A stretch of DNA of 64,000 bases, from positions 248,001-312,000 of the forward strand of contig NC_019814.1 of the NCBI RefSeq assembly GCF_000319245.1, read 5' to 3'. The stretch comes from Candidatus Kinetoplastibacterium blastocrithidii (ex Strigomonas culicis) (GTDB taxonomy: Bacteria; Pseudomonadota; Gammaproteobacteria; Burkholderiales; Burkholderiaceae_B). Each line of letters opens with the position of its first letter. Position 1 is the first letter of the stretch. The notes beneath the pieces are model-generated. The model saw nothing but the letters and a program-made list of their open reading frames with translations, searched no databases and was not told the origin of the DNA. The position numbers and the translations under genes are program-made. Below are positions 5,832 through 63,831 of the stretch, one piece after another.

Positions 5832-5843
5832 AGGTCTTTGTAT

Positions 5844-9191: not shown

Positions 9192-9201
9192 TAATATGTT
9201 T

Positions 9202-9229
9202 TGGAATAGTTATATAATTAGCTATTCCA
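9202..9229 (+). terminator. Possible terminator hairpin after htpG
   Basis: Inverted repeat TGGAATAG (9202-9209) and CTATTCCA (9222-9229), an 8-bp perfect stem with a 12-nt loop, 10 bp past the htpG stop. The following sequence is T-rich but lacks an immediate run of T. Plausible rather than secure. Confidence 0.45.
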
Positions 9230-9262
9230 CTAGTATTTTGTTGTTTTTAATATAGGGTTTTT

Positions 9263-10648: not shown

Positions 10649-10675
10649 TTTATATCTGATATAATATCTAACTAT

Positions 10676-11659
10676 CTAATCTTGATTAGAAGATGCATTT
10701 GTTAAGTAACAGAATCTTTCCATATCGATATTGCTTCCTGTCAATATCACTCCGATATTTTTATTGTTAAGAGCTCCATGATTATTTATAGCAGCAGCTA
10801 ATCCTAAACATCCAGTTGGCTCAACTATTAATTTTAAATAATTAGCAGCTATCTTCATTCCTTCTATTATCTGATCATCAGTGACTGTTACTATGTCATC
10901 AACATACTTTTTTATTATATTAAAAGTTTTTTTGCCCAGACATTGTGTTTGAGCTCCGTCAGCAATAGTTTTTGGTGTTTCTATTTTTACCAGCTTCCCT
11001 GAATTGAATGATTGTTGACCATCATTTGCAAACTGTGGCTCTACTCCATAGATCTTGCAATTACTAGCTAATTTGCGTCCGATTAAAGATGATCCGGCTA
11101 GTAATCCCCCTCCTCCCAAACCTATAAATATAGCATCTAAATTTTTTATTTCCTCGAAAAACTCTTTGCAAACTGTTCCGGCTCCTAATATGACATTATA
11201 ATCATCGTAAGATGAAATAGGAATTGCACCATATGTTTCCACGATATTTTTAAGCAGTTTTTCTCTCTTATCAACATATCTATCGTATAAAATTACTTTG
11301 TTAGCATATTTGCGTGTAGATTCTAATTTCGCTAATGGGGCATCAAGTGGCATTAATATTATAGACTTTACATTAAGTATCTTTGATGACATAGCCATAG
11401 CTTTAGCATGATTTCCAGAAGAAAATGTAGCTACTACAGTACTGCAATGATCACTATTTAGTTGTTTTAGTGCATTAATTGCTCCTCGAAATTTGAATGA
11501 TCCTGTTCTTTGTAAATTTTCGCATTTAAAAAAGAAATTTGCTCCAAATTTTTCATTAATTTCATGTGATACTAGGATAGGAGTTTTGTATATATAATTA
11601 GATATACGTTCAGCTGATTTTGCAATATCTTCAAAATTTGCGGCTAAAAGATCATTCAT
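10676..11659 (-). CDS. Threonine dehydratase, short form without regulatory domain
   Basis: PLP enzyme deaminating threonine to 2-oxobutanoate, the entry to isoleucine; serine could also be a substrate. 327 aa. Visible are the PLP-lysine motif SFKFRGA (Lys56), the substrate loop TFSSGNHAKAMA, and the phosphate-binding loop GLGGGGLLAG. The protein stops after the catalytic domain. It lacks the C-terminal ACT-like regulatory region of the roughly 500-aa biosynthetic IlvA, so by length it resembles catabolic TdcB-type enzymes. Given ilvD at 3981, a role in isoleucine synthesis without isoleucine feedback is my inference. Serine racemase/dehydratase is the main alternative. Confidence 0.85.
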   Translation of the reverse strand: MNDLLAANFEDIAKSAERISNYIYKTPILVSHEINEKFGANFFFKCENLQRTGSFKFRGAINALKQLNSDHCSTVVATFSSGNHAKAMAMSSKILNVKSIILMPLDAPLAKLESTRKYANKVILYDRYVDKREKLLKNIVETYGAIPISSYDDYNVILGAGTVCKEFFEEIKNLDAIFIGLGGGGLLAGSSLIGRKLASNCKIYGVEPQFANDGQQSFNSGKLVKIETPKTIADGAQTQCLGKKTFNIIKKYVDDIVTVTDDQIIEGMKIAANYLKLIVEPTGCLGLAAAINNHGALNNKNIGVILTGSNIDMERFCYLTNASSNQD

Positions 11660-23322: not shown

Positions 23323-23823
23323 TTATAGTCGCATAAGGTTTTTGGGTTTTTTTATATAGGTAACAAAATCATAGTTATAATTATTCTCAGAAAATTGAGG
23401 TTTGCGATCAATTTCTAACCAAATTTCTGATTGTATTTTTGGAAAAAACGAATCTCCTTCCAATAATGAGTGTATTTCTGTTGCTAATATGCGTGATGAT
23501 ATTGGTAGAAATTGTTCGTATATTGATGATCCGCCTATGATAAAAATTTTTTTATTTGGCTTACATAAGCTGATAGCCTCACTAGGAGATTTTGCTAGGA
23601 CAGCTCCGTTAGTCAATATATTGTTTCGTGTTATAACTATGTTCTCTCTGTTAGGCAATGGTTTTATGGGCAATGAATCCCAAGTTTTTCTGCCCATAAT
23701 AACTGTATTGTTTACAGTATGTTCCTTGAATGATTTTAAATCAGAAGATATTCTCCACGGTAGTGTATTTTTATTTCCTATGACTCTGTTGTCAGAGTAG
23801 GCTACTATAATTGTTATTTCCAT
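23323..23823 (-). CDS. folA: Dihydrofolate reductase
   Basis: Reduces dihydrofolate, the by-product of thymidylate synthase, to tetrahydrofolate with NADPH. 166 aa. Signature pieces are VIGNKNTLPWRISSDLKSFKE near the N-terminus (substrate pocket), VIMGRKTWDSLP, and IFIIGGSSIYEQFLP. Encoded 17 bp downstream of thyA on the same strand, forming a thyA-folA operon. The stop codon is contiguous with that of the convergent decarboxylase gene, with no bases between. Confidence 0.97.
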   Translation of the reverse strand: MEITIIVAYSDNRVIGNKNTLPWRISSDLKSFKEHTVNNTVIMGRKTWDSLPIKPLPNRENIVITRNNILTNGAVLAKSPSEAISLCKPNKKIFIIGGSSIYEQFLPISSRILATEIHSLLEGDSFFPKIQSEIWLEIDRKPQFSENNYNYDFVTYIKKPKNLMRL

Positions 23824-25741: not shown

Positions 25742-27145
25742 ATGAAATTCTTAAAAGATATTGAATCATTACTAGGTAATGAATATGTTCTTACTGGTGA
25801 TTCAATGCAAAAATTTTTGACAGATTGGCGTAAGCGATATATAGGGAATGCTCTGGCGGTAATATTGCCTAGGACATCTAGCGATGTGGCTGCAATAGTT
25901 AATTTATGTATATCATATAATGTATCAATTGTACCTCAGGGTGGGAATACTGGATTATGTGGGGGAGCAACACCAGATACTTCTGGCAAGTCTATAGTTA
26001 TATCAACTATAAGAATGAATTCTATTACAAATATTGATATTATTAATAACTCTATAACGGTTGAAGCTGGTTGTATTTTAAAAAATGTTCAGAATGCTGC
26101 TCTAGATTGCAATAGATTATTTCCTTTAAGTCTTGCCTCTGAAGGTAGCTGTACTATAGGAGGCAATCTAGCTACTAATGCTGGTGGTACTCAGGTTTTG
26201 AGGTACGGGAATATTAGAGAACTCACGTTAGGAATTGAGTTTGTTAATGCAGAAGGAAACATAGTTAATGCATTGAGAGGTTTACGGAAAGATAATTCAG
26301 GGTATAGCTTACGTGATCTTTATATTGGAAGCGAAGGAACATTGGGGATAATAACAGCAGCCTCTCTAAAATTATTTCCTAAGCCTTTAGATAGAAAGGT
26401 CATTTTAGTATCAATAGGTTCTTTAGAGCAAGCAGTTAGTTTTTTTTCATATTCCCGTAGTTTTTTTTATGAAAAAATAACAGCTTTCGAGTTGATGAGT
26501 GGTTTATGTATAGATATGGTTAAGAAATTACTTGATTTGCCGAAGAATTTCATCAATAAGTCTTCATGGTTTGTGCTGATAGAGATATCTTATAGTGATA
26601 ATCATGATGAAACTGCTGATGTGATAAGTAGTTTTTTAGAAAATTCTATAAATAAAGATCTAATTTTCGATGCCATGGTTTCTAATAATGTAAAACAAAA
26701 TGAAGAAATTTGGTTGATGAGGGAGAGTATTCCTATTGCAGAGAGAGACTTTGGAAAAGCAATTAAACATGATATATCTGTTCCTATATCTAGCATTGCT
26801 TCTTTTGTTAAGGAAACAAATAGTTTAATACAAGCTTCATTTCCAGGGGTGCAGCATATAATTTTTGGTCATATTGGGGATGGAAATTTACACTATAATA
26901 TAGCAAGGGCTAGCTGGCAAAGTGAATGTCAGTTGCTATCTTTGCAAGATGATATTTATAGGATAGTGCACAGCATGGTAGTTGATTTTGGAGGTTCTAT
27001 TAGTGCAGAGCATGGAGTAGGGATGCTTAAAGTAGGTGAATTATCTAAATATAAGAGTGTTTCAGAACTGCACATGATGAAACTTATAAAATTAGCTATA
27101 GATCCATATAATATAATGAATCCAGGCAAGATTTTAATGATTTGA
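25742..27145 (+). CDS. FAD-linked oxidase, GlcD/D-2-hydroxyacid dehydrogenase family
   Basis: 467-aa flavoprotein. The PCMH-type FAD-binding domain has VPQGGNTGLCGGA near residues 66-78, then GSCTIGGNLATNAGGTQVLRYG and a GSEGTLGIITAA segment. The C-terminal cap domain ends with FGHIGDGNLHYN (metal/substrate histidines), GSISAEHGVGMLK and IDPYNIMNPGKIL. This pattern is shared by glycolate oxidase GlcD, D-lactate dehydrogenase Dld-II and D-2-hydroxyglutarate dehydrogenase, and I cannot choose among them. No glcE/glcF partners are nearby, which favours a single-subunit D-2-hydroxyacid dehydrogenase. Converges with mutM, one base between stops. Confidence 0.88.
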   Translation: MKFLKDIESLLGNEYVLTGDSMQKFLTDWRKRYIGNALAVILPRTSSDVAAIVNLCISYNVSIVPQGGNTGLCGGATPDTSGKSIVISTIRMNSITNIDIINNSITVEAGCILKNVQNAALDCNRLFPLSLASEGSCTIGGNLATNAGGTQVLRYGNIRELTLGIEFVNAEGNIVNALRGLRKDNSGYSLRDLYIGSEGTLGIITAASLKLFPKPLDRKVILVSIGSLEQAVSFFSYSRSFFYEKITAFELMSGLCIDMVKKLLDLPKNFINKSSWFVLIEISYSDNHDETADVISSFLENSINKDLIFDAMVSNNVKQNEEIWLMRESIPIAERDFGKAIKHDISVPISSIASFVKETNSLIQASFPGVQHIIFGHIGDGNLHYNIARASWQSECQLLSLQDDIYRIVHSMVVDFGGSISAEHGVGMLKVGELSKYKSVSELHMMKLIKLAIDPYNIMNPGKILMI

Positions 27146-27146
27146 T

Positions 27147-27992
27147 TTATGTGATTTTTTTATCTACATTCTGACAATTAGGACAATAATAAGTAGAACG
27201 TCCGCTCTGTTTTATTTTTATTATTTTAAATCCGCATACATTGCAAGGAAGTTCGTTTCTTCCGTAAACAGAAGCATGATTTTTGATATAATTACCGCTT
27301 TGCCCACTAGTGCTTACATAATTTCTTATAGTGCTTCCTCCAGATTTAATAGAATTGCATAGTGTTTCACGTATACATAATATTAGTTTAGCGCAGTCAC
27401 TTATGGAAAGTTTTGATGCTGATATTAATGGGTTTATTTTTGATTTAAATAGGCTCTCTGAGGAATATATATTACCAATTCCTACTACGATATTTCCATC
27501 CAAAAGAATTTGCTTTATAGATTTTTTTTTATTGGAAAGCTTATTATAGAGGTATTGTTCTGTTAGTTTTCTTGAAAATGGTTCTAAGCCAAGGTTTTTA
27601 AAAATTTTATTATCGTACAATGTGCCATCATTTTTTATATCATGCCATAGTATTGCCCCAAATCTTCTTGGATCATTCATTCTTAGTATTGTTGAATCAT
27701 TAAAAGTCCACTCTATGTGATCATGTTTTCCAGGCGGCTCATTAGTTATAAACTGCAGTGATCCAGACATTCCCAAGTGTATTATTTGCACACCATGTTC
27801 AAAATGAAACAATAAATATTTCCCTCTACGAGAGCAGTTTATAACATTCTTATCTGTTATAATTTTTGGAAGGGAAGCTAGTATAGGCCATCTTAGCTTA
27901 TGATTTCTAATTTTGAATTTTAAAATAGTTTTATTTTGTATCCTTGGTCCTATCTCTCTTTTAAGTAATTCTATTTCCGGTAGTTCTGGCAT
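27147..27992 (-). CDS. mutM: Formamidopyrimidine-DNA glycosylase
   Basis: Bifunctional base-excision enzyme removing 8-oxoguanine and nicking the abasic site. 281 aa. It starts MPELPEIELLKREI with the catalytic Pro2 and Glu3. The helix-two-turn-helix segment GIGNIYSSESLF is present, as is a C-terminal zinc finger CNVC...CPNCQ with the intercalating QSGRSTYYC. Complete. In Alcaligenaceae mutM and lolB are commonly divergent neighbours, as here (171 bp between). Retained repair in a reduced genome is notable but not unusual for this group. Confidence 0.97.
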   Translation of the reverse strand: MPELPEIELLKREIGPRIQNKTILKFKIRNHKLRWPILASLPKIITDKNVINCSRRGKYLLFHFEHGVQIIHLGMSGSLQFITNEPPGKHDHIEWTFNDSTILRMNDPRRFGAILWHDIKNDGTLYDNKIFKNLGLEPFSRKLTEQYLYNKLSNKKKSIKQILLDGNIVVGIGNIYSSESLFKSKINPLISASKLSISDCAKLILCIRETLCNSIKSGGSTIRNYVSTSGQSGNYIKNHASVYGRNELPCNVCGFKIIKIKQSGRSTYYCPNCQNVDKKIT

Positions 27993-28163: not shown

Positions 28164-28733
28164 ATGTTATCCAGATTATTTTATGCTTCAAATTTTGTTT
28201 TTCTTATTGCTTTATGTTTATTATCAAATTCTTGTATTCACAAGAATTTGATAAATGATAGGATCTTTGAAAGAACAGGTAGTTTTTATATAGTGGAGAA
28301 GGATGATTCGAGAATATTAAGAGCATTCCAAGGTACATTTTTTTGGAATGATTACGGTGAATATTATGAGCTTGGTCTATCAAATTTCTTTGGCAAGAGA
28401 GAAGTTTATCTAAAGGTATCACCTGATAATGCTTTGCTTAGAACTGCAGATGGTTTCTATTTGCAATCTCTAGATGCCGATGATCTTGCATCCCAATTCT
28501 TGGGTTATAAAATTCCTATGAATAGTTTGAGGATATGGTTGAAAGGTTCATTTATTTGCAATGATATTCCTGAGAAATTATTAACTGATAAGTTTAATAA
28601 ACCAAGTTCTTTTATCTTATCTGACTGGGATGTTAAATTATCTAGTTACGATATATTTGGCCCTAGAAAAATAATTATGCAAAAAACACAAGAAAATAAC
28701 TCTATTACTATAAAATTAATAGTTAAAAATTAA
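28164..28733 (+). CDS. lolB: Outer-membrane lipoprotein LolB
   Basis: Receives lipoproteins from LolA and inserts them into the outer membrane. 189 aa. The N-terminus is a lipoprotein signal: hydrophobic FVFLIALCLLSNSC with the lipidated Cys at residue 24 (lipobox S-N-S-C, less hydrophobic than the consensus). The remainder is divergent, with a F-x-W sequence (GTFFWNDYGEYYELGLSNFFG) typical of the LolB beta-sheet start. Identification leans on its place directly before ispE, which is the standard betaproteobacterial order, and on the lipobox. Stop to the ispE start is 4 bp. Confidence 0.82.
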   Translation: MLSRLFYASNFVFLIALCLLSNSCIHKNLINDRIFERTGSFYIVEKDDSRILRAFQGTFFWNDYGEYYELGLSNFFGKREVYLKVSPDNALLRTADGFYLQSLDADDLASQFLGYKIPMNSLRIWLKGSFICNDIPEKLLTDKFNKPSSFILSDWDVKLSSYDIFGPRKIIMQKTQENNSITIKLIVKN

Positions 28734-32831: not shown

Positions 32832-33905
32832 ATGGCCTTGCAATGCGGTATTGTCGGTTTGCCAAATGTCGGTAAATCTACTTTGTTTAATGCTTTAACG
32901 AGAGCAGGAATAGCTGCTGAAAATTATCCTTTTTGTACAATTGAACCAAATGTTGGCATTGTTGAAGTGCCAGATGTCCGTTTGATTAATTTGGCCAGTA
33001 TAGCAAAACCAGAAAAAATAATACATGCAACTGCAGAATTTGTTGATATAGCTGGATTAGTGTCAGGTGCTAGTAAGGGCGAGGGTCTTGGAAATCAATT
33101 TTTGTCTCATATTAGAGAGACTGATGCTATATTAAATGTAGTTCGTTGTTTTGATGATTCAAATATTATTAATTGTAACGGAAAAATTGATCCAGTAAAT
33201 GAAGTAGAGGTAATAGAAACAGAATTAATTCTTGCTGATTTAACTACTATAGAAAGAATTTTATCTAAGAATCAAAAAAAATCTTCTAATATATCAATAG
33301 ATCTTTTGAATAGATGCTTGAATCATTTGAATGAGAATAAATCACTTAGAGATTTAGATTTATCAATCGATGATTCTTCGTTGCTAAAAAATTATTCTTT
33401 TCTGAGTATTAAGCCTATTATGTATATAGGAAATGTTAGTGAAGATGGTTTTATTAATAATCCGTTACTAGAAAAACTAAAAAACTTCTCTTTAAAACGT
33501 AATATTCCTATGGTTACGATATGCGCATCAGTAGAGCAAGATATAGCTGATATGTTTGATGAAGATCGAAAGATTTTTTTAGAGGATATGGGTCTTAAAG
33601 AACCAGGACTGGATAGATTAATCAGAGCTGCTTTTTCTCTACTTGGTCTTCAAACTTATTTTACAGTTGGGGTCAAAGAGGTTCGTGCATGGACTATACC
33701 GGTAGGTTCTACTGCTAGCAAAGCAGCTGGCGTTATACATACTGATTTCGAGAAAGGATTTATAAGAGCGCAAACCATCTCTTACGAGGATTTTATAAAA
33801 TATGCTGGAGAATCAAGAGCCAGAGAGGCCGGTAAAGTTCGGTCTGAGGGCAAGGATTATATTGTAAAAGATGGAGATATAATGAATTTTCTATTTAATG
33901 TTTAG
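32832..33905 (+). CDS. ychF: Ribosome-binding ATPase YchF
   Basis: Obg-family P-loop protein that prefers ATP and binds ribosomes. 357 aa (E. coli 363). G1 [15 protein letters not shown] is at residues 8-22. The switch region [18 protein letters not shown] and G3 [26 protein letters not shown] follow, and the C-terminal TGS-like domain includes [14 protein letters not shown] and [18 protein letters not shown]. Preceded by a good AGGAG. The stop is 5 bp from the convergent coaD stop. Confidence 0.97.
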
Positions 33906-33910
33906 TAGAT

Positions 33911-34390
33911 TTATTTGATTTTCCGTGTCTGAAAACAATTCTCAACGTAAGGACAAACGAATTTGCTGATATCTCCACCAAGTTTGGCTATTTCTCTTAC
34001 TATGCTTCCGGAAATATATTGATATTCAGGAGAGGTGATCATAAAAAATGTTTCTATATCAGGCATTAATTGACGGTTCATGCCAGCCATTTGAAATTCG
34101 TATTCAAAGTCTGAAGTAGTTCTTAACCCTCTTAAGATTAATTTTGCATTTTTTTTGTGTACAAAGTCTTTTAATAATCCATCAAAACTTTCAACCTCAA
34201 CATTTGAGTATTTTTTCAAAATAATACTAGCAATATTTACTCGTTCCTCTATTTTAAAAAAAGGATACTTTTTTTTGCTATGGGCTATGCCTACTATTAT
34301 TTTATCAAACAATTTAGAGGCTCTAAGAATTATATTCTCATGGCCTAGTGTTAAAGGATCGAAGGTTCCAGGATATATTGCAGTAATCAT
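33911..34390 (-). CDS. coaD: Phosphopantetheine adenylyltransferase
   Basis: Penultimate enzyme of coenzyme A synthesis. 159 aa, standard. It starts [20 protein letters not shown] with the nucleotidyltransferase T-x-G-H motif, followed by [26 protein letters not shown], and [20 protein letters not shown] near the C-terminus. Its leader region shares the interval with the groEL terminator (34424-34459), so it probably starts from its own promoter just downstream of that hairpin. Confidence 0.97.
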
Positions 34391-34423
34391 TTTTCTAATT
34401 TAATTATGACAGAGCCATGAAAA

Positions 34424-34459
34424 ATGATGCAGTCCTTTAAAAATAAAAGACTGCATCAT
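34424..34459 (-). terminator. Intrinsic terminator of groES-groEL
   Basis: Perfect 11-bp inverted repeat ATGATGCAGTC (34424-34434) and GACTGCATCAT (34449-34459) with a 14-nt loop. Read on the minus strand it lies about 40 bp past the groEL stop and is followed by a T run (TTTTCA). Confidence 0.78.
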
Positions 34460-34497
34460 AAAAAGCATGTTTAAATTAAGATAGTATTATCTAGTAA

Positions 34498-36487
<1,990 letters not shown>

Positions 36488-39186: not shown

Positions 39187-40580
39187 TGCAATTTAATAAA
39201 ATTATATTAATAGTTAGTTACGTTCTAATCATAATGATATCTCCGTTTATAGCCTTTGCAGATGAATTGATATATGAGGATAAAATAATAGCTATAGTAA
39301 ATAAAGATATAATAAAACTAAGCGATTTAGTTAAAGTTGAGAATTGTTTTATTAATAACTTATTAAAAAGTAGCGTCCATATACCAGATAAGTTTGTCTT
39401 ACGAGCGCAATTGCTAAATCAAATGATTGATTGTGAATTGATACGACAGGAATCTAATAAGATAGGAATTTTTGTTGATGATAATAAATTAAATACCGTT
39501 ATATCAGATATGGCCTCTGATTGTAAATTGTCTCTGGATTTATTTAGGTCAAAAATTGAAAAAGATGATTCTATACCATGGGATGTATATTTATATAATA
39601 TTAGAAATGCAATCTATTTTAATACTATAAAACAGCATCTTGTTGAAGAAAAGATGAAAATTACAGATCTGGACGTAGAAAATTTCTTATCTGATTTGAA
39701 TAAAGGAAATAAATGCCATGAAAGTTTCCTGCAAAACAGAAAAAGCTATAAGAATTTATATTCTTTATCACAGGTTTTATTAAAGCCACCACAAAATTTC
39801 TCAGGTGAGATGATTGATGACTCATGTGAGATATTGAAAGAGATTCAGGCCAAATTAAGAGCTGGAGAAAAATTTGATGATTTGCGTGATAAGTTGTATA
39901 ACAATCCTTATTTATCATTTACAGATTTTTTGGGAACTAAGCCTTTAAATTGTTGGCCTGAAGTGTTTATTAATGCTATAGAGAATTTATCTGTAGGAGA
40001 GGTCAGTGAGATATTTAGAAGCCCTAGTGGTTTTCATATTATAAAAGTACTAGATATAATCCACTGTAATAATGAAGATGATGATGTGTTATCTAAGAAG
40101 TTTCATGAAATATTAATTAGGAAAAAAGGTGATTCAGTAATTCAAAGAGAAATACAGCATATCTTGATTAAACCTCATCAAATTATTAATGAAGAGGAGA
40201 TCATTAATAATTTGGAGAAGATTCGATTAGATATGCTCTCCGGCAATATAAGTTTTGAAGATATGGCACGTAAGTATTCTGAAGATATAACAGCTTCTCA
40301 AGGTGGTAGCATGGGATGGGTGGCCCCAGGACATCTTGTTAGAGAGCTAGATAATGTTATTAATAAATTAGATCCAGGTCAGATTAGTGGGGTTATTAAG
40401 TCACAATACGGTTATCATTTGGTAAAAGTTAATGATATCAGGAGTAAAGATATATTTGATGAAAATAAGCGTATCAGGGCAAAAGAATATCTTATTGAAT
40501 TGAATTCACAATATATTTTCGATAATTGGCTAAATAATTTAAAGAAGTGCTCTTTTATAGAGAATAGATTAATGGATTAA
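39183..40580 (+). CDS. surA: Periplasmic chaperone and peptidyl-prolyl isomerase SurA
   Basis: Escorts outer-membrane barrels such as LptD across the periplasm. 465 aa with signal peptide MMQFNKIILIVSYVLIIMIS...AFA. The N-terminal chaperone domain is followed by two parvulin PPIase repeats, about residues 180-290 and 320-425. The second is the better conserved, with SEDITASQGGSMGWVAPGHLV and YGYHLVKV; the first keeps SLSQVLLKP and GFHIIKV. The ATG overlaps the lptD TGA by 3 bp (ATGA), so the two are translationally coupled. Confidence 0.95.
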   Translation: MMQFNKIILIVSYVLIIMISPFIAFADELIYEDKIIAIVNKDIIKLSDLVKVENCFINNLLKSSVHIPDKFVLRAQLLNQMIDCELIRQESNKIGIFVDDNKLNTVISDMASDCKLSLDLFRSKIEKDDSIPWDVYLYNIRNAIYFNTIKQHLVEEKMKITDLDVENFLSDLNKGNKCHESFLQNRKSYKNLYSLSQVLLKPPQNFSGEMIDDSCEILKEIQAKLRAGEKFDDLRDKLYNNPYLSFTDFLGTKPLNCWPEVFINAIENLSVGEVSEIFRSPSGFHIIKVLDIIHCNNEDDDVLSKKFHEILIRKKGDSVIQREIQHILIKPHQIINEEEIINNLEKIRLDMLSGNISFEDMARKYSEDITASQGGSMGWVAPGHLVRELDNVINKLDPGQISGVIKSQYGYHLVKVNDIRSKDIFDENKRIRAKEYLIELNSQYIFDNWLNNLKKCSFIENRLMD

Positions 40581-40597: not shown

Positions 40598-41380
40598 ATG
40601 AGTTTTAAACCTCGTAAGCGTTTTGGACAGAATTTTCTTATTGATGATAGCATTATAGAAAAAATAATGACGGCCATAGATCCTAAAAGAACTGATTCTA
40701 TTATAGAGATAGGCCCCGGCTTATCAGCTTTGACGGCTCCTCTTTTAGACAGGGTAGATTGTTTAATTGCTATTGAGATAGACAAGGATTTATCCAGAAC
40801 TTTAAAGAATAGACATTCTTCTAAAAAATTAATGCTTATAGAGAAGGATGTAATGGATCAAGATTTTAGTATATTCGGCAACAATATTAGAATAGTTGGA
40901 AATTTACCTTATAACATATCTAGTCCTTTGCTTTTTCATTTAATGTCTGTTGCTGATATCGTAAGAGACCAGCATTTTATGCTTCAAAAAGAGGTTGTTG
41001 ATAGGATGATATCTAAACCTTCCAGTAAGAATTACGGCCGTCTTTCAGTTATGCTACAAGAACGTTATAGAATAGAAAAATTATTTGATGTTCCATCAGA
41101 ATCGTTTAACCCTAAACCTAAAGTTTCTTCTTCTATGGTTAGATTAATCCCATTATCAGATGCTCGTAATAAGCCAAATGATTATTTATTATTTAAGAAA
41201 GTAGTTTTAGAAGCTTTCTCTAAACGAAGAAAAACATTGAGAAATTCCTTAAAGGATTTATCAAAGGATATTCCTTGGTGCAAATTAAAAATATCTCCTG
41301 AATCTAGAGCCGAAGATATTTCAGTTGAGCAATTCATTAATCTGTCAGATCATTTTTTAAAAAATACGCCAATATTATAG
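40598..41380 (+). CDS. rsmA: 16S rRNA (adenine1518-N6/adenine1519-N6)-dimethyltransferase
   Basis: KsgA. Dimethylates two adjacent adenines in helix 45, a late check of small-subunit assembly. 260 aa. It begins MSFKPRKRFGQNFLIDDSII, with SAM motif EIGPGLSALTAPLL, IEIDKDL, and the catalytic NLPYNISSPLLFH. The C-terminal domain has FNPKPKVSSSMVRLIP and FSKRRKTLRNSL. Complete. It lies 17 bp after surA; the pdxA gene often found between the two is absent. Stop separated by one base from the convergent mgtE stop. Confidence 0.97.
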   Translation: MSFKPRKRFGQNFLIDDSIIEKIMTAIDPKRTDSIIEIGPGLSALTAPLLDRVDCLIAIEIDKDLSRTLKNRHSSKKLMLIEKDVMDQDFSIFGNNIRIVGNLPYNISSPLLFHLMSVADIVRDQHFMLQKEVVDRMISKPSSKNYGRLSVMLQERYRIEKLFDVPSESFNPKPKVSSSMVRLIPLSDARNKPNDYLLFKKVVLEAFSKRRKTLRNSLKDLSKDIPWCKLKISPESRAEDISVEQFINLSDHFLKNTPIL

Positions 41381-41381
41381 A

Positions 41382-42830
41382 TTACAATAAGAATATTGTA
41401 GACAATCCTAAAAAAACTATAAATCCTAGAGAATCAGTAGCAAATGTTAGAAGAACTGAAGACCCTATTGCTGGGTCTTTATTGAAGTGAGTTCTAAGCA
41501 TTGGAACAATTACTCCAACTAAAGTTCCTATAAGTACATTACATATAATTGCTCCCATGATAACTAATGCTATTAAAACTGAATTTGACATGGACCAAGC
41601 AAATATAGCTGCAACTATTCCTCCACTAGTGCCAATAAAAGATGCAAGAATCATTTCTCTTTTAAGCAAAGGAAATAGATCCCTCTCTGTAATATGGTTC
41701 GTAGCAAGTGCTCTAATTACCATCGTCATAGTTTGATTTCCAGAGTTGCCTCCAATTCCAGCTACTATAGACATAAGGAAAGCTAGCACCACAAGCTCAC
41801 TGACTGTATTTTCAAATCTGGATGCTATAAATGAAGAGATAGAAGCTGTAAATAAATTCACTAAAAGCCACGGAGACCTATTCAATATAGCAGTTGTTAT
41901 TGGAGCAAATATATCTTCTTCTTGTAATCCAGCTCTTGATAAAGCCTGAGCATTTGAATCTTCTTGAATTACATCAACTACATCAGCTATTGTTACCCGT
42001 CCGATTAGTCGGCCATAATCATCTATTACTGGAGCAGAAACAAGATCATATCTTTCAAATGCTGCTGCCGCATCAGTATCTGAATCTAAAGGGCTTATAG
42101 TTAAGAAATCCCTAGTCATTACATTATAAACATCATCACTAGGATCATTGACTAATATTTTTACTAGAGGAAGAACCCCTTGTAGTTTGTCTTGTCTATC
42201 TACTACAAATATTTGATCGGTGTGATCAGGAAGTTCTTGCAATCGTCTAAGGTATCTAAGGACAACTTCAAGTGTTACATCTTCTCTTACCTTGACCATC
42301 TCGAAGTCCATTAGAGCCCCGACACTTTCTTCGGGATAGGCCATAGCCTCTAGAAGTCTAGCGCGTTCTTCATCATCTAGCCTTTTTTCTATTTCTGCTA
42401 TAACTTCTGATGGTAGATCAGTAGATATATAAGCTAGCTCATCGGCATCCATTGTGCTTGTTACAGAAACTAAATCATGCCAGCTCATTGCTTCAATAAG
42501 AGATTCTCTAACCCAATTTTCTACTTCTATAAGAACATTAGGTTGTTTATTCTGATCAACTAGAGACCATATAATAAGTCTTCTATCTTTTTGTAAAGAT
42601 TCTAAAATGAATGCAATATCAGCAGTATGGAGAGAGTTAATTAATGATCCTAGATCGTGAACTATGTTACTTTTGTTTAAATTGGTAGATATGTTTATTT
42701 CTAAATCATTTTCATGATGATGTTTTTTAAAATATTCTTGTATTTCTAATAATGAATTTTTAACATCGTCATGATCTAGTCGACGTATTACCAACGATTT
42801 TTTTTGAGAGTCATTAATAATTCTTTTCAT
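41382..42830 (-). CDS. mgtE: Magnesium transporter MgtE
   Basis: Mg2+-gated channel-type importer. 482 aa. In order: N-terminal superhelical sensor domain with MSWHDLVSVTSTMDADELAYISTDLP, two CBS repeats (about residues 160-290; DRQDKLQGVLPLVKILV and DDYGRLIGRVTIADVVDVIQED), a connecting helix, then five membrane helices with IVAGIGGNSGNQTMTMVIRAL and the pore-region conserved Asn/Gly residues. Full length. It ends one base from ksgA, and the thioesterase gene lies 7 bp upstream on the same strand. Confidence 0.96.
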   Translation of the reverse strand: MKRIINDSQKKSLVIRRLDHDDVKNSLLEIQEYFKKHHHENDLEINISTNLNKSNIVHDLGSLINSLHTADIAFILESLQKDRRLIIWSLVDQNKQPNVLIEVENWVRESLIEAMSWHDLVSVTSTMDADELAYISTDLPSEVIAEIEKRLDDEERARLLEAMAYPEESVGALMDFEMVKVREDVTLEVVLRYLRRLQELPDHTDQIFVVDRQDKLQGVLPLVKILVNDPSDDVYNVMTRDFLTISPLDSDTDAAAAFERYDLVSAPVIDDYGRLIGRVTIADVVDVIQEDSNAQALSRAGLQEEDIFAPITTAILNRSPWLLVNLFTASISSFIASRFENTVSELVVLAFLMSIVAGIGGNSGNQTMTMVIRALATNHITERDLFPLLKREMILASFIGTSGGIVAAIFAWSMSNSVLIALVIMGAIICNVLIGTLVGVIVPMLRTHFNKDPAIGSSVLLTFATDSLGFIVFLGLSTIFLL

Positions 42831-43312: not shown

Positions 43313-44191
43313 TTAGTTTAGATTACTTATTTTTGGCTGGATAATGTTGAACAAATCAATATAAATTGATTTGTTCCCGGCCAAAACCCAACCGTTATTA
43401 ACAGGCCAAGGATTTTTTTCTATTATGTCCTCACATGTTCCACCAGCCTCTCTTAGTATTATTGTGCCAGCAGCAACATCCCATGCTGACAAACCAAATT
43501 CCCAATATCCATCATATCTGCCACAAGCAATCCATGCTAGGTCTAGAGCAGCTGATCCCATTCTTCTAATACTTCTAGTATTTTTTAATATGTCCTTCAA
43601 TATGCCCATTTGTTTTTCATGATGTAAGCAATTATTGTATGGCAATCCAGTAGATATTATAGATTTATTAATATCTTTGGTATCTGAGCATTTTATTGTT
43701 CTTCCGTTTAATAATGATCCATGACCAAGTATAGCGCTAAAAGTTTCATTTCTGCATGGGTCATATATCACTCCTATTACTGGGGTATCTTTCTCTAATT
43801 TAGTATTGTTGATAAATGTTCCAGCATGAGCTACTAAAGAAATAGATATAGAATAATGGGGTATTCCCCGTATAAAGTTCGTTGATCCATCAAGAGGATC
43901 TATATACCATGTCGCTATCTTTCCTATTTTTCCACCGGATTCTTCCGTTATAATACCGTATTCATTGCCATCTATATTCAGTTTATCTATTATTGCAGAT
44001 TCTGATTCTCGATCAGCTTGTGAGAATAAATCATTACTATTTTTATTATGTATTATCAGCTCCTGAAGGTTTTGAAAATAATATTGCAGGATTTTTGCTC
44101 CAGATTTTGCAGCATCCAACGCCATATTTAATATATTACATAAGTTCATATTACTCATGTATAAGGATTTCGAGATTATATCGTTCGACAT
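43313..44191 (-). CDS. suhB: Inositol-1-monophosphatase family protein SuhB
   Basis: Mg2+-dependent sugar-phosphate phosphatase. In E. coli SuhB also acts in rRNA antitermination and ribosome biogenesis, which probably explains retention. 292 aa. Metal-binding motifs are IITEESGG (Glu), WYIDPLDGSTNFIRGIPHY and the C-terminal GLSAWDVAAGTIILREAGG. The open frame's first Met at 44191 gives an N-terminus about 14 residues longer than the usual one. Internal ATGs at 44158 and 44149 are alternative starts; none has a clear ribosome binding site. Confidence 0.92.
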   Translation of the reverse strand: MSNDIISKSLYMSNMNLCNILNMALDAAKSGAKILQYYFQNLQELIIHNKNSNDLFSQADRESESAIIDKLNIDGNEYGIITEESGGKIGKIATWYIDPLDGSTNFIRGIPHYSISISLVAHAGTFINNTKLEKDTPVIGVIYDPCRNETFSAILGHGSLLNGRTIKCSDTKDINKSIISTGLPYNNCLHHEKQMGILKDILKNTRSIRRMGSAALDLAWIACGRYDGYWEFGLSAWDVAAGTIILREAGGTCEDIIEKNPWPVNNGWVLAGNKSIYIDLFNIIQPKISNLN

Positions 44192-44454: not shown

Positions 44455-45339
44455 TTATCTATTTAATCTTATAGACATAAGAATCGATGATATTGCCATG
44501 AGCATGCCAATGATGTTTTTTCTGCTCAATCGTTCTCTGAATAGAAAGGTTCCAGCAATTGTTCCCAATATAACTACCCCCAAATTCATAATAATAAATA
44601 CTGTCGATGGCATGTTATATAAACACTTGTGTGCTTTTATATATGAAAATATATTAACCCAGTTAAGAGAACCAATTAGCAGTCCATTTATGATATTATT
44701 TTTGCTAAAAATAAATTTCTTATTTATAGATAAAATATAGATTATCATTGCTATACTAGCTATTAAGAATGATAGAAATAAGCAATTTGTTAGGGAATGA
44801 TTACCACTTATTTTTTTAAACATAATATCAGCCATTCCATATGTAAAACATACTAATATGGGCCATTTAAAATTAGATAAGATTTTTACTCTTTCCTCTT
44901 CATATTCTTCTCGTTTATCTAATAAGCATAATATAGAAAATATAGTACTAGCTACATATATGATTTTTATGGCGCATGGCTTGTCATCAAATATAGTAAA
45001 AGCTGCTATTATTGGCATTACTACGGATATACGTTGAAATATTTCGCTTTTAGCCACCCCAAAATATTCTATCGATTTTGACATTGATATAAATCCTATT
45101 GGTAATAGGCATCCTAACAATAATATGTATATCATATTATTGTTTACAATGGCTAGAAGATTTTCATTGTATGTTTTAAAAAAAAATAAACTAAGAATTG
45201 TAGCTATTATGTAGTTTATTAAAACAATTTCACTAAGATCAGATTTTCTATATGTGTTTTTTTTTAGAAATTTTAAGGTTATCGATACTAGTATACTGCA
45301 AGTAATGCTTAGAAAAAGGTACAAAAAACCAACAATCAT
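44455..45339 (-). CDS. Drug/metabolite transporter (EamA/DMT superfamily) membrane protein
   Basis: 294 aa with about ten hydrophobic helices in two five-helix halves, the architecture of EamA/RhaT-type DMT permeases. The first half ends near residue 140. The second begins with ILVCFTYGMADIMFKK, and there is a conserved-looking VVILGTIAGTFLFRERLSRKNIIGM near the end, which matches the EamA signature where an F-x-E-R/K follows helix nine. The substrate is unknown; metabolite exchange with a host is a natural guess. It lies alone between tRNA-Lys(TTT) and the tRNA-Ala/Glu/Asp cluster, with no functional neighbours. The overall style reminds me of Bacteroidetes DMT proteins, but that is memory, not an alignment. 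Confidence 0.8.
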   Translation of the reverse strand: MIVGFLYLFLSITCSILVSITLKFLKKNTYRKSDLSEIVLINYIIATILSLFFFKTYNENLLAIVNNNMIYILLLGCLLPIGFISMSKSIEYFGVAKSEIFQRISVVMPIIAAFTIFDDKPCAIKIIYVASTIFSILCLLDKREEYEEERVKILSNFKWPILVCFTYGMADIMFKKISGNHSLTNCLFLSFLIASIAMIIYILSINKKFIFSKNNIINGLLIGSLNWVNIFSYIKAHKCLYNMPSTVFIIMNLGVVILGTIAGTFLFRERLSRKNIIGMLMAISSILMSIRLNR

Positions 45340-57530: not shown

Positions 57531-57559
57531 TTGACATACTGTGTTTACATAGATACATT
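57531..57559 (+). promoter_or_regulatory. Sigma-70 promoter candidate for tkt-gap-pgk
   Basis: Perfect TTGACA at 57531-57536, 17-nt spacer, TACATT at 57554-57559 (four of six). It lies in the rsmE/tkt divergent interval about 115 bp before the tkt start. Confidence 0.5.
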
Positions 57560-57674
57560 AATTATAAACATAATTATAAATTTGTTTAGGCTAGGTTACT
57601 ATATTTTACACAGATGGTAAAATTAAAATCACTAGATTATTTATTTTTAAGCGTTGGAGTTAAAGAGTTATCAC

Positions 57675-59729
57675 ATGAGTAATATGACGAACACACCTAA
57701 ATATTTTTTGGCAGATTCTATACGAGTTTTATCTATGGATTCAGTTCAGCAAGCAAATTCAGGACATCCTGGGGCCCCGATGGGAATGGCAGAAATGGCA
57801 CAGGCACTTTGGAGAAATAATTTGCAGCATAATCCTTCTGATCCTAATTGGATAAATCGAGATCGTTTTGTCTTGTCTAACGGACATGCATCTATGCTCC
57901 TGTATTCTTTATTGCATTTGACAGGGTATGATCTCTCTATAGATGATTTAAAGACTTTTCGCCAATTGCATTCAAAAACCCCTGGTCATCCTGAAGTGGG
58001 AATTACTCCAGGGGTTGAGACTACTACTGGCCCACTTGGGCAAGGATTAGCTAATGCAGTAGGAATGGCTTTGGCAGAAACTTTGCTAGCTTTAGAGTTT
58101 AATAGGCCAGGATTTGATATAATAGATCATAGAACTTATGCAATAGTTGGTGATGGTTGTTTGATGGAAGGCATATCTCATGAGGTTTGTTCTCTAGCAG
58201 GAACATTGAAGCTATCTAAGTTAGTCGTATTATACGATGACAATGGTATTTCTATTGATGGTCATGTGAAGAATTGGTTTGGCGATGATACGGCAGCTCG
58301 TTTTCGTGGGTATAACTGGAACGTTATCGAAGGAATAGATGGTCATAATGTAGATGCTATTGATGCGGCCATAAAATTAGCTAGATCTCAAAATGACAAG
58401 CCTACTTTAATAATTTGTCATACTATTATTGGAAAGGGATCTCCAAATATGGCAGGTACACATAGTGTACACGGCTCTCCGTTAGGTAAGGATGAATTAG
58501 CAGCTACACGTGATAACCTGAATTGGAAGCATGATAAGTTCTTTATACCTGAAGAGGTATATGAGGCATGGGATGCTAGGGAGATAGGGGCCAAATTACA
58601 ATCAACGTGGCAATCTAAGTTTAGTATTTATAGTGATAAGTATCCTGAGTTGTCTAAAGATCTTATTCGCCGAATGAATGGAGACTTGCCTGATGATTTT
58701 GATAGTTTTGCAAATAAACTTATTAATATGACGATTGATAAGGCGGAGACACTAGCAACTAGGAAGGCGTCCCAGTTAGCTATTTCCGAGCTGGTATCAG
58801 AACTGCCAGAATTATTGGGAGGTTCTGCTGATTTAACTGGTTCAAATTTTACTGATTGGAAAGACTCGGTTTCCGTTCGATCTGATAGCAAAGGAACCAA
58901 TTTTGGTAGATACATAAATTATGGCGTGCGTGAATTCGGCATGGCCGCTATAATGAACGGAATATCATTACACGGTGGTTATTTGCCATTTGGAGGAACT
59001 TTTCTAACTTTCTCTGATTATTCTCGTAATGCTATTAGAATGGCGGCTTTAATGAGACAAAAAGTAATTCATATATTCACTCATGATTCAATAGGATTGG
59101 GTGAAGATGGTCCTACGCATCAGTCAATAGAGCATGCAGCTAGCTTACGTCTTATTCCTAATTTGTCTGTATGGAGACCATGTGACACTTTAGAGACAGT
59201 AGTTGCTTGGTTATATGGGGTTCGTAGAAATTCTAGTGTAGGAATGAGAGTTAGAGATGGGGGACCAACTGCTTTATTGCTTTCTAGACAGAATTTGCCT
59301 TTTATTGATAGAGATAGAGATACTGTTGAATCAATAAGTAAGGGTGGTTACATATTAAAGGAAAACAAGAATGCTGAGGCAGTAATTATAGCAACAGGCT
59401 CTGAGATTTCTATTGCTTTGGATGCTCAAAGCAAGTTAAGTGAAGAAGGTATCATGATCAGAGTAGTTTCTATGCCAAGTACAGATGTTTTTGATAAACA
59501 GGATATTAGCTGGAAAAACAAGGTTCTTCCTAGTGACTTGCCTCGTATAGCTATAGAAGCAGGTGTTACATCTGGATGGTATAAGTATGTTGGTATAGAT
59601 GGTATAGTTTTAGGTATTGATCGTTATGGTGAGTCAGCTCCTGCCGGTTGTTTATTTAAATTTTTTGGCTTAACTGTTGATGTTGTTGCTGATGCTGTAA
59701 GAAAGATTTTGTTAAATAAAGGGATATAA
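57675..59729 (+). CDS. tkt: Transketolase
   Basis: Thiamine diphosphate enzyme linking the pentose phosphate pathway and glycolysis. 684 aa from the ATG at 57675. An in-frame TTG at 57654 would add seven residues, and an ATG at 57684 is also possible. Motifs: [16 protein letters not shown]-type start ([20 protein letters not shown]), [20 protein letters not shown], the ThDP fold [37 protein letters not shown], and the C-terminal-half [15 protein letters not shown]. Complete. gap begins 3 bp after its stop, so the two are co-transcribed. Confidence 0.97.
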
Positions 59730-59731: not shown

Positions 59732-60742
59732 ATGGCAATAAGAGTTGCAATTAATGGGTATGGTCGTATAGGGCGCAATATTTTGCGGGCTCATTATGAA
59801 TATGGCAAAAAAAATAATATAGAGATAGTTGCTATAAATGATATGGGTGGTTCAGAGGCAAGTGCGCATCTGACTCGTTTTGATACTGTTCATGGCAAAT
59901 TTAATGGTTCAGTTTCAGTAGAAAAAGATCACATGGTTGTTAATGGTGATAAAATAAGAATGCTTGCTAATCGCAACCCAGAAGAGTTGCCTTGGAAATC
60001 ACTTGATATTGATGTTGTATTGGAATGTACTGGGGCCTTTGCATCTAAAGAAAAATCTATGGCTCATATTAGAAGTGGGGCAAAAAAGGTTATCATATCG
60101 GCACCTGGTGGAGAAGATGTTGATGCTACAGTAGTGTTTGGAGTCAATGATAATATACTTAGGTCATCACATACAGTTATCTCTAATGCCTCTTGTACAA
60201 CTAATTGTTTGGTTCCTATTGTTAAACCACTAAATGATGTTGTCGGTATAGAAAATGGTCTTATGACTACTATTCATTCTTATACAAATGATCAAGTTCT
60301 TACTGATGTCTCTCACAAGGATTTAAGAAGAGCCAGGTCAGCTACTATGAGCATGATTCCTACTAAAACTGGAGCTGCTGCTGCTGTTGGTTTAGTTCTG
60401 CCGGAATTAAAAGGTAAGCTGGATGGTTGTTCTATAAGAGTTCCTACCATTAATGTATCATTAGTAGACTTATCTTTTATTGCTAAAAGAGAAACTTCTG
60501 TAAAAGAAATACACGAAATATTAAAGGAAGCATCTGAAAAATCTTTGAAAGGAGTTTTAGATTTTAGCTCAGATTATCTTGTCTCTATTGATTATAATCA
60601 TAGCCCTGCATCTAGTACCTTTGATTCTACCCTAACCAAGGTGTCAGGTAGACTTGTTAAAGTATTTTCATGGTATGACAATGAGTGGGGTTTTTCTAAT
60701 CGCATGTTAGATACTACTGCTGCTCTCATGTTGGCTAAGTAG
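59732..60742 (+). CDS. gap: Glyceraldehyde-3-phosphate dehydrogenase
   Basis: NAD-dependent glycolytic enzyme. 336 aa. The Rossmann motif [13 protein letters not shown] is at residues 8-20, the catalytic Cys155 is in [12 protein letters not shown], and [13 protein letters not shown] closes the protein. AINDMGG with an Asp after the second strand (AIND) is typical of NAD specificity. Starts 3 bp after tkt. A terminator-like hairpin at 60756-60797 lies between gap and pgk. Confidence 0.98.
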
Positions 60743-60755
60743 TTAATGCTGTATG

Positions 60756-60797
60756 TACAATAAACACTTTTATTAATAATGTGTTTATTGTATTTTT
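60756..60797 (+). terminator. Terminator-like hairpin between gap and pgk
   Basis: Perfect 12-bp inverted repeat TACAATAAACAC (60756-60767) and GTGTTTATTGTA (60781-60792) with a 13-nt loop, followed by five T at 60793-60797. It has the form of a rho-independent terminator, yet only 25 bp remain before the pgk start. Confidence 0.78.
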
Positions 60798-60822
60798 GAT
60801 ATTGATATCTATAGAGGTTTCA

Positions 60823-62016
60823 ATGAGTGTTAAGACTTTGAGCGATTTATCTAGATCTGGAAAACTATTTGGCAAGAGAGTTTTTATAAGAGCAGATCTA
60901 AATGTTCCGTTTGATAATGCAGGTAATATTGCGGAAGATACACGTATTAGGGCTTCTGTGCCTGGAATCAGACTAGCTTTGGATGGCGGGGCTGCAATAA
61001 TGGTAACCTCTCATCTAGGACGGCCTAAAGAAGGAGTGTTGAGAGAGTCAGATTCTTTAGCAAAAGTAGCCCAAAGATTATCAGAAATTCTAGGTATGCA
61101 AGTAGAGCTTATTAAGGATTGGATCGAGGGTGTTAGTATTGATCCAGGTCAGGTAGTATTATTAGAAAATTGTAGGGTGAATATTGGAGAGAAGAGTAAT
61201 GACGATTCTTTATCTCGCAAGATGGCTTCTTTGTGTGATGTGTATGTTAATGATGCATTTGGTACAGCACATCGTGCAGAGGCTACTACTTGTGGCATAA
61301 CCAAATATGCTGCTACTGTATGTGCTGGGCCTTTATTAGAAGCTGAGTTAGCGGTTTTGCATCGTGTCTTTTCTTCTCCAAAGAAACCTTTAGTTGCTAT
61401 TGTTGGAGGATCTAAGGTTTCTTCAAAATTATCAGTGTTAAAGTTTTTGTCTGATAAGGTCGATTACTTGATAGTCGGTGGTGGTATTGCTAATACTTTT
61501 ATGTTAGCTGCTGGTTTACCGATTGGTAAATCTTTAGTAGAGTTGGATCAAGTGGAAAATGCACTTTTCATTATTAATAGCATGAAAAGTCGTGGTGCTG
61601 CTGTACCTATTCCGGTAGATACTATCTGTGCTAAGTTTTTTGATGTCAGTGCTGAAGCTAATTTAAAGTTATCTAAGGAAGTATTAGAGGATGACATTAT
61701 AATGGACGTTGGTCCTGAAACATCTAGAATATTTGGGGAAATACTAGATTTGGCCGGAACAATTGTTTGGAATGGTCCAGTCGGAGTTTTTGAATTCGAT
61801 CAGTTTGCGAATGGAACATCTTTTATTGCAGATACTATAGCCAAATCGAAAGGTTTTTCTGTAGCCGGTGGTGGAGATACTATTGCAGCCATAGCTAAAT
61901 ATGGAATAGAGGATAAAATCGGATATATATCTACTGGAGGCGGAGCATTTCTTGAGTTCTTAGAAGGTAAAACCTTACCTGCTGTAGAAGCTCTACAATT
62001 AAGAGCTGATCAATAG
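60823..62016 (+). CDS. pgk: Phosphoglycerate kinase
   Basis: ATP-forming glycolytic kinase. The open frame extends upstream to a GTG at 60781, but that leader overlaps a hairpin. I set the start at the ATG 60823, which has AGAGG 5 nt upstream and gives 397 aa, the normal length. Motifs: [70 protein letters not shown] and the ATP-site [14 protein letters not shown]. Complete. The stop is one base from the convergent pit stop. Confidence 0.97.
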
Positions 62017-62017
62017 A

Positions 62018-63493
62018 TTATTCTAGAATAAAGATGCCTATGGCGAATAGGGATGCAGATAATGATATTGCTGCAGGAAGAGTTAGTACCCATGCTAACA
62101 AGATGTGGCGGACAGTATTTTGTTGTAGGCTTACTTTATTAGCTACAACTGTCCCCGCAATTCCGGAAGATAGCACATGTGTTGTTGATACAGGTAGATT
62201 AAATAGGTTTGCTATCCCTATAGAGAACACAGCTGTGACTTGGGCTGCTGTTCCTTGGGCATAGGTCATTCCTTGCGTCCCTATTCTCTCCCCTACAGTT
62301 GTAACGACTCGTTTCCATCCTATCATGGTTCCAAATCCTAGAGCAGTTGCTACAGCTACTATCACCCATATTGGCGCGTATTCTACAGTGGAAGTGATAT
62401 CTGTTCTAAGTCTATCTAAATCATATATATTTGGAGTGGTTAGGTTTTGTGTTTTTACAACATTCTTGGCTATGTCATCTAAACAAAGTAAATTTTTTCG
62501 AGTATTTATTCTTTGTTTTATCGATAAGTCCTCATATTTTGATATGTTCTTTAATGTGGTCTCTATTGTGTTAATAGTTGCTAGTGTCATTTTTGGGCTG
62601 CAACTTAGGTCTTTAGAGAGGTCATTAGATATAATCTGATCACTCATATTTATGTATCCAATTATGTCTTCTTGATTTCTATTATAGAATTCTCGCATAT
62701 GCACAACAGCATTTCTTGTTCTGTCTATTTGATATGACGTACTTTGTAGATCCAATACATATTGAGCTGGGGATATTCCTATAAGAATAAGCATTACTAG
62801 ACCAATACCTTTCTGTCCGTCATTTGAGCCATGAACAAAACTAACTCCCATCGCCGAAATTACAAGAACAAGCCTATTCCAGAAAGGAGGGTGTTTTTTC
62901 GCCTCTAAAAATCTACGTTGTTTGGGAGTGTAATGCATATTTGATTTTGGCCAGATATTCTTTAATACTAGAAATAACCATCCAGCCAGAATAAATCCTA
63001 TGATAGGAGAAATTATCATTGAGAGACTGATGTCTATAGCTTTGCTCCAATTTATGCTGTCAACCATTGGCACGTTTGTTAGCCAAGAGTTAGTCAGTCC
63101 TACTCCTAAAATCGATCCAATTAGGGTATGTGAGCTTGATGCTGGTATACCAAAGAACCATGTTCCCAGGTTCCATATTATAGCAGCTGATATCATGGAA
63201 AATATCATGATTAGTCCACGAGAACTATTGACATTGATAATCAATTCGATAGGTAATAAATGTACTATAGCGTACGCTATACCAACCCCCCCCATAAGCA
63301 CACCCAAGAAATTAAATATCCCAGAAAAAATTACAGCTATATGTGGAGGCATAGCTTTAGTATATATTACAGTAGCAACTGCGTTAGCAGTGTCATGAAA
63401 TCCATTTATAAATTCGTAGACAAGGACAAAGGCCAATGCCATGATTAGGCCAAAACAAACCCACACGCTTAAACCAGAAAATATACTTATCAT
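62018..63493 (-). CDS. pit: Inorganic phosphate transporter, PiT family
   Basis: Low-affinity phosphate (metal-phosphate):H+ symporter. 491 aa (E. coli PitA 499). Two PiT signature halves are visible: YEFINGFHDTANAVATVIYTKAMPP near the N-terminus and SFVHGSNDGQKGIG near residue 220. The C-terminal set has GMTYAQGTAAQVTAVFSIGIANLFNLPVSTTHVLSSGIAGT. About ten helices with a long hydrophilic loop around residues 255-370. Complete. No phoU-like gene adjoins it. Confidence 0.94.
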   Translation of the reverse strand: MISIFSGLSVWVCFGLIMALAFVLVYEFINGFHDTANAVATVIYTKAMPPHIAVIFSGIFNFLGVLMGGVGIAYAIVHLLPIELIINVNSSRGLIMIFSMISAAIIWNLGTWFFGIPASSSHTLIGSILGVGLTNSWLTNVPMVDSINWSKAIDISLSMIISPIIGFILAGWLFLVLKNIWPKSNMHYTPKQRRFLEAKKHPPFWNRLVLVISAMGVSFVHGSNDGQKGIGLVMLILIGISPAQYVLDLQSTSYQIDRTRNAVVHMREFYNRNQEDIIGYINMSDQIISNDLSKDLSCSPKMTLATINTIETTLKNISKYEDLSIKQRINTRKNLLCLDDIAKNVVKTQNLTTPNIYDLDRLRTDITSTVEYAPIWVIVAVATALGFGTMIGWKRVVTTVGERIGTQGMTYAQGTAAQVTAVFSIGIANLFNLPVSTTHVLSSGIAGTVVANKVSLQQNTVRHILLAWVLTLPAAISLSASLFAIGIFILE

Positions 63494-63831
63494 AAAAGTT
63501 AATTTTAAATCAAAATAGTAATTTTGTTATTTATAAAAATAAGTCAAAATTCTATAGATCAGATTTTAAAAGAATGCAAAAATGCTTAATTAAAAGTTAT
63601 TGAGTTAGCATTGGTGTAAGTATGGATCAAAATATTTATTTTTTAAAGTAATAAATAAATATTTTGAAATAATATTATCAAATATGGAGAAAATCAAACC
63701 TATTAGTATTTGTTTTTATGTGTGATTTAATAGGTATTATTTATATATAATAGCCTTTATATTTTTATGATTGTGTTGTAAATTCATTTCCGGTTTTGAT
63801 ATCAACAACTTAGTTTTGGGAGAATTATCTC
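63494..63831. other. 338-bp noncoding interval between pit and fba with two inverted repeats
   Basis: No open frame or RNA gene recognized. It holds a perfect 14-bp inverted repeat, TCAAAATATTTATT (63627-63640) and AATAAATATTTTGA (63654-63667), with a 13-nt loop, and a second 8-bp one, ACCTATTA (63698-63705) and TAATAGGT (63728-63735). A TATAAT at 63746-63751 is a possible -10 for fba, without a good -35. The pit promoter on the other strand was not located. Confidence 0.6.

Follow-up and report, generated by a model that had tools for sequence, protein, structure and literature searches.

How is phosphoglycerate kinase supplied from an operon in which a hairpin and a run of T's stand directly in front of its gene? 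This question is raised by the junction of gap and pgk in 'Candidatus Kinetoplastibacterium blastocrithidii', which we analyzed within a 64-kb stretch of DNA (here called the window; positions 248001 to 312000 of the 820,037-bp genome). Members of 'Candidatus Kinetoplastibacterium' are symbionts of trypanosomatids. The genus belongs to a family that includes Bordetella and was represented in our set by eight genomes, the seven single-contig ones measuring 741,697 to 833,125 bp. If the hairpin ended transcription, little RNA would reach pgk; if it acted within a longer transcript, it could instead set how long the upstream part of that transcript lasts.

The gap-pgk junction and its operon

The features of the operon, all on the + strand, are as follows.

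57531 to 57559, + strand: promoter-like site TTGACA-17-TACATT (10/12 in a consensus scan), upstream of tkt; a candidate promoter for tkt-gap-pgk, such a match being no functional evidence by itself
57654 to 59729, + strand: tkt, transketolase (TIGR00232, 944.6 bits, above the cut-off); start codon uncertain
59732 to 60742, + strand: gap, type I glyceraldehyde-3-phosphate dehydrogenase (TIGR01534, 422.2 bits, above the cut-off)
60755 to 60793, + strand: intercistronic hairpin of 12 Watson-Crick pairs (60756 to 60767 with 60781 to 60792) plus one G.U pair, with a loop of 13 nt
60793 to 60797, + strand: T5 tract, immediately 3' of the 12-bp stem
60813 to 60817, + strand: likely ribosome binding site of pgk, AGAGG, with identical bases in the sister genomes G001 and G002
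60823 to 62016, + strand: pgk, phosphoglycerate kinase, 397 amino acids, ATG start (residues 4 to 392 of PRK13962, 425.8 bits; this is a bifunctional model with a cut-off of 883, which the score does not reach)

The tkt and gap genes are separated by 2 bp and gap and pgk by 80 bp. A preliminary description of this DNA had reported a perfect 12-bp stem with a T5 tract dividing gap from pgk, and direct reading of the sequence confirmed it: TACAATAAACAC (60756 to 60767) pairs with GTGTTTATTGTA (60781 to 60792) across the 13-nt loop. The reported distance of 25 bp to pgk was also correct, with the T5 tract ending at 60797 and the ATG beginning at 60823. The hairpin starts 12 nt past the stop codon of gap (which ends at 60742), and both flanking genes lie on the same strand. 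Only 3 of the 12 stem pairs are G-C, and the base of the stem is A-U-rich. An in-frame GTG at 60781 falls within the hairpin and is not likely to be the start of pgk. Folded alone, the segment from 60755 to 60793 reached -13.4 kcal/mol with 13 pairs including the G.U, and none of 200 shuffles was as stable; the z of -5.0 is flattered by trimming the segment to the hairpin. In a 91-nt context the z was -2.5, and 4/200 shuffles were equally or more stable. The stem also folds on the opposite strand, but there it is not followed by a T run. The gap-pgk hairpin of the window is a genuine element, of an ordinary kind. Rfam gave no match at E <= 1 between 57400 and 63600 of the window and none at gathering score in seven gap-pgk junction loci. 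A repeat or mobile element was ruled out, since the hairpin occupies a single place in its own genome and the second match was the palindrome itself read on the opposite strand.

Perfect stems are overrepresented in this genome and need not be spacer elements. The window contains seven of at least 12 bp with loops of 3 to 16 nt, compared to 2 in total over 10 shuffled windows (0.2 each). The stem at 60756 is the only one of the seven with at least four T's within the next 12 bases, either strand being checked. The six others (16720 to 16751, 28221 to 28254, 40179 to 40214, 43349 to 43376, 45116 to 45144, and 63627 to 63667) are 12 to 15 bp long and lack T runs. The first five of these, from 16720 to 45144, fall within called open reading frames; thus, long inverted repeats by themselves are no sign of regulation in this genome. 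Stems of 11 bp also occur after ilvD (5831 to 5959) and htpG (9191 to 9263), each before the next gene on the same strand, and resemble the gap-pgk arrangement. A mechanical open reading frame call gave six convergent gene pairs (9263 to 11659, 21067 to 23823, 25742 to 27992, 32832 to 34390, 40598 to 42830, and 60781 to 63493) with gaps of 0, 1, 1, 1, 5, and 27 bp. These gaps leave little or no room for a terminator, so transcripts may continue into the opposite gene.

The preliminary description had offered three ways of supplying pgk: read-through, a promoter overlapping the hairpin or inside gap, or a hairpin that serves as a processing or stability element and reduces pgk relative to gap. 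Among 60 of the 62 sites of our consensus scan, no + strand promoter site of at least 9/12 lies between 59956 and 61467. Because the scan yields no more sites than shuffled sequence does, the missing pgk promoter is weak evidence; still, with no evident promoter between mid-gap and pgk, a strong terminator would deprive pgk of any evident promoter. Read-through combined with a processing or stability element is the best supported of the three options. A related reading takes the inverted repeat to be a regulator-bound DNA site, or part of a pgk promoter that overlaps the hairpin. The perfect inverted repeat directly upstream of pgk would suit it, and in AT-rich sequence weak -10 matches should come easily; the scan result is one point against it, and the pairing pattern in relatives, described below, is another.

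RNase E is encoded in all eight genomes of the genus, and Rho, PNPase, and RNase III are encoded in both genomes tested, that of the window (G000) and G003. In G003, the smallest genome of the genus (741,697 bp), a second match to RNase E/G is partial and below the cut-off (G003:C1:201812-202483, within an open frame of 2,080 amino acids); RNase G may be absent or truncated there. According to PMC7729029, one Kinetoplastibacterium PGK is predicted to be inactive; the Pgk of the window is full length at 397 amino acids.

Spacer hairpins in the genus and the family

A significant fold was found in the gap-pgk spacer of seven of the eight genus genomes (energy p 0.005 to 0.025); the 41-nt spacer of G003 showed none (energy p 0.54). 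Two stem sequences occur in the genus, one common to G000 through G002 and the other, with TGGGC-like and GCCCA-like arms, in G004 through G007. The stems of G006 and G007 are interrupted and were missed by the perfect-stem test but detected by folding energy. Since MAFFT apparently misplaced the 5' arm of the G004 to G007 spacers, pairs were counted from hand-chosen arms, a choice that favors pairing; the count was 64 Watson-Crick pairs, 7 G.U pairs, and no A.C.

For the family, we compared 113 stretches, 105 from other genera and 8 from the genus genomes; pgk was matched in 110/111 family genomes at E <= 1e-100. The gap and pgk genes are adjacent (at most 400 nt apart) in 106 of the 113 stretches, with 26 spacers shorter than 40 nt and 80 of 40 to 400 nt. 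The 80 longer spacers were subjected to a perfect-stem test on the first 100 nt and a folding-energy test on the first 130 nt, each taken as positive at p <= 0.05 against shuffles. Folding energy was significant in 70/80 spacers, compared to 12/80 for the 3' end of gap and 3/80 for the middle of pgk. Perfect stems were significant in 62/80 spacers, compared to 2 of 80 at the 3' end of gap, 13 at the 5' end of pgk, and 4 in the middle of pgk. Spacer hairpins are common after pgk as well (34/80 positive in the perfect-stem test just after the gene), yet their frequency at gap-pgk is well above this. Either test was passed by 73/80 spacers, and 29 of 43 genera had at least one positive. Neither gave a signal in the remaining seven (L148, L168, L170, L201, L206, L210, and L226), although L168, L170, and L201 contain a GGGCGGG stem. 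Stem sequences vary between lineages of the family. Strong folds were also noted in named records: the gap-pgk spacers of two Achromobacter records (L034 and L035) have stems of more than 20 bp (z -6.2 and -5.2), and the 153-nt spacer of Bradyrhizobium diversitatis (L112) folds very strongly (z -7.6).

The short spacers (26/106), the lack of a hairpin in G003, and the seven longer spacers without a signal indicate that the element is dispensable. Together with the perfect stems that lie inside open reading frames of the window, the short spacers and G003 could also mean that the hairpin is neutral, being either an inverted repeat of a type frequent in this genome or a spacer relic without current function. 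We consider this highly improbable, as a significant fold is found at this place in seven of eight genus genomes despite differing arm and loop sequences.

In 40 spacers of relatives, the stem takes the common form GGGCGGG-loop-CCCGCCC. The loop is a GNRA tetraloop in 25 of the 40 (GCAA in 14, GCGA in 6, GTAA in 3, and GTGA in 2). Selection of these 40 rows relied on the inner seven pairs, which leaves the outer ones as the informative part. The outer four pairs, which lie outside the selection, contained 20 G.U or U.G cells compared to 2 A.C or C.A cells, and 26 cells were altered on both sides compared to 14.1 in shuffles (0/500 as high); all shuffle values are too strong, as the 40 rows come from related genomes. 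Sliding the alignment by one column still left 24 cells changed on both sides. In the same shuffle test, 269/500 shuffles had at least as many pairs altered on both sides and 212/500 at least as many pair types, so that neither measure is exceptional; altogether, three of five measures support pairing on the sense strand. The GNRA loops and the bias toward G.U are strand specific, which argues that the element acts as RNA and not as a DNA site. This pattern, and the change of stem sequence between clades of a single genus, make a regulator-bound site or a hairpin-overlapping promoter very unlikely.

The aligned spacers of the 40 relatives have a further majority consensus, TTGnCnTnTCTG, 3' of the stem, and a 20-base motif occurred at a single place, gap-pgk, in 5/8 genomes searched, with no occurrence in the other three. 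A covariance model (R1) was run over 81 genomes and gave 32 rows of at least 34.5 bits: 29 in sense at gap-pgk, 1 antisense there, and 2 elsewhere. The on-locus matches are circular, because the model was built from gap-pgk copies, and the scan is no proof of absence elsewhere, as its filters were stricter and no genome had more than 76 first-look candidates scored. In the loci of the window's genus (L219 to L226), the model had no match at E <= 1, so it is position that links the genus hairpins to the element of the relatives. The hairpin could be the source or part of a small RNA derived from the 3' UTR, or a site for an RNA-binding protein, as the TTGnCnTnTCTG consensus and the confinement of the 20-base motif to gap-pgk would allow; we rate this as very doubtful for the window, since the TTGnCnTnTCTG stretch was not seen in the spacers of its genus and Rfam gave no match. 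A broader conjecture for the family, which we regard as improbable but less so, is that the GGGCGGG hairpin with its GNRA loop and the TTGnCnTnTCTG-like stretch together form an RNA element specific to this locus and so far undescribed. It would adjust the ratios of glycolytic enzymes, either by way of a dedicated binder or by releasing a small RNA, and its counterpart would have survived, wholly rewritten in sequence, in a 0.8-Mb genome.

T runs after the stem

The hairpin could be a leaky intrinsic terminator: hairpin and T5 would halt some polymerases after gap, read-through would supply pgk, and the same hairpin would stabilize the ends. The window does present a stable stem with a T-rich tract immediately 3' of it, at the sole perfect stem of the seven with a T run. 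On the 3' side of groEL (34390 to 34498, minus strand, before coaD), a 16-bp stem followed by TTTTC has the look of a good terminator and suggests that the genome has terminator-like hairpins. Across all stem types in the family, a T score of at least 3 was reached in 21/76 gap-pgk hairpins with stems of at least 7 bp. In the window, however, the base of the gap-pgk stem is A-U-rich, and although the three G-C pairs satisfy the rule of our terminator scan, the 13-nt loop exceeds the 3 to 8 nt that the scan allows, so the hairpin is absent from its list.

The T tract is also not kept with the stem. Within the genus, a run of at least four T's directly follows the stem in 2/7 genomes with a hairpin (T5 in the window's genome and TTTT in G004), and the two nearest sister genomes, G001 and G002, retain the stem without such a run. 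As a control, junctions of convergent genes were taken from 400 kb of two relatives with crude gene calls; a T score of at least 3 was found in only 1/13 junctions with a stem of at least 7 bp. This control fails to separate terminators, and off-locus matches of the covariance model were therefore used instead. A T run of at least four, scored in the first 12 bases past the G+C core of the stem, followed 8/40 GGGCGGG hairpins at gap-pgk (leaving 32/40 copies without one) compared to 11/14 off-locus matches, the best by E-value (Fisher p 1.6e-4, which is too strong because the rows are related and two of the 14 apparently represent one place shared by two genomes from a single genus; the end of the stem core was also set by slightly different rules on and off the locus). 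Judged by sequence, model-like hairpins elsewhere thus mostly resemble ordinary terminators and the GGGCGGG copies at gap-pgk mostly do not.

Two off-locus copies without T runs were noted. One (L247:1844-1889; G068:C39:5844-5889) lies between genes for an ABC substrate-binding protein (PF04392) and a permease (PF02653); such a junction is a textbook place for differential stability within an operon. The other (L257:2001-2046; G017:C57:29201-29246) follows a gene for a Fer2-domain reductase-like protein and is succeeded by TTGTCATGTCTG, similar to the gap-pgk arrangement; the gap-pgk spacer of the same genome, G017, measures just 11 nt.

The term 'terminator-like' in the preliminary description is thereby weakened: it suits the stem and T5 of this species, but a T run is missing in its sisters G001 and G002 and in most GGGCGGG copies of the family. 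Because the family hairpins usually lack T's, the hairpin more likely guards the gap RNA than halts transcription before pgk. We consider a leaky terminator possible but rather unlikely, and an intercistronic RNA hairpin appears to be the better description.

Proposed role of the hairpin and known precedents

We favor, with somewhat more confidence than doubt, an intercistronic hairpin that would protect the gap cistron at its 3' end within a tkt-gap-pgk transcript and thereby favor gap over pgk. Transcription would begin upstream of tkt, pass the hairpin, and enter pgk. The long RNA would then be cleaved by RNase E or RNase G, or its decay would start at the 3' end, and PNPase or other 3'-to-5' exonucleases would stall at the hairpin. 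The tkt-gap segment would thus outlive the pgk segment (segmental message stabilization), and we propose that more Gap than Pgk is made from one operon as a result. Three observations are consistent with such a role: the hairpin lies past the stop codon of the upstream gene between two genes of the same strand, which are presumably cotranscribed; pairing is kept on the sense strand of the RNA; and the nucleases for processing and 3' decay are encoded. In the window's species, T5 may contribute some termination at the same place, and partial termination of this kind is possible there; sequence alone cannot separate it from stabilization.

The best precedent for the proposed stabilization is the gap-pgk message of Zymomonas mobilis, which concerns the same gene pair and for which segmental message stabilization is attributed to Eddy et al. 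(1989, 1991) and Burchhardt et al. (1993), as cited in PMC4686702. PMC6544118 places the 1989 Zymomonas case under multiple promoters and terminators, not under differential decay. Zymomonas is a different organism, and in the operon of the window tkt precedes gap. The puf (rxcA) operon of Rhodobacter capsulatus likewise has a hairpin between cistrons (Belasco 1985 and Klug 1987, as cited in PMC4686702); the cited titles refer to segmental differences in stability and to the effects of deleting the hairpin region, and the genes are those of photosynthesis, unlike tkt-gap-pgk. For selective RNA processing and stabilization in E. coli, PMC10667835 reports that the folding free energy of stem-loops at PNPase sites is negatively correlated with the stopping of PNPase at the 3' end and that such elements determine expression within operons. 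With intrinsic (Rho-independent) terminators, the window hairpin shares the T tract directly after the stem. It differs from them in its 13-nt loop, its A-U-rich base, and the loss of the T tract in sister species, and the ribosome binding site of the next gene starts 15 bp past the T tract. We found no description of a gap-pgk hairpin element of this family in the open-licence papers searched, as judged by titles and the beginnings of abstracts. In PMC11780869 and PMC3386247, pgk or the gap-pgk operon comes up for other bacteria, but the passages concerned contain nothing on such a hairpin.

These results advise caution, as 'hairpin plus T's' is not sufficient to call a terminator in AT-rich genomes. 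They turn what looked like a curiosity of a single genome into a comparative case, in which one operon junction carries hairpins of lineage-specific sequence in most sampled genera of the family, including a genus whose genomes are strongly reduced. If these hairpins set the ratio of gap to pgk, the junction would provide a simple and testable case in which RNA structure fixes the stoichiometry of an operon.
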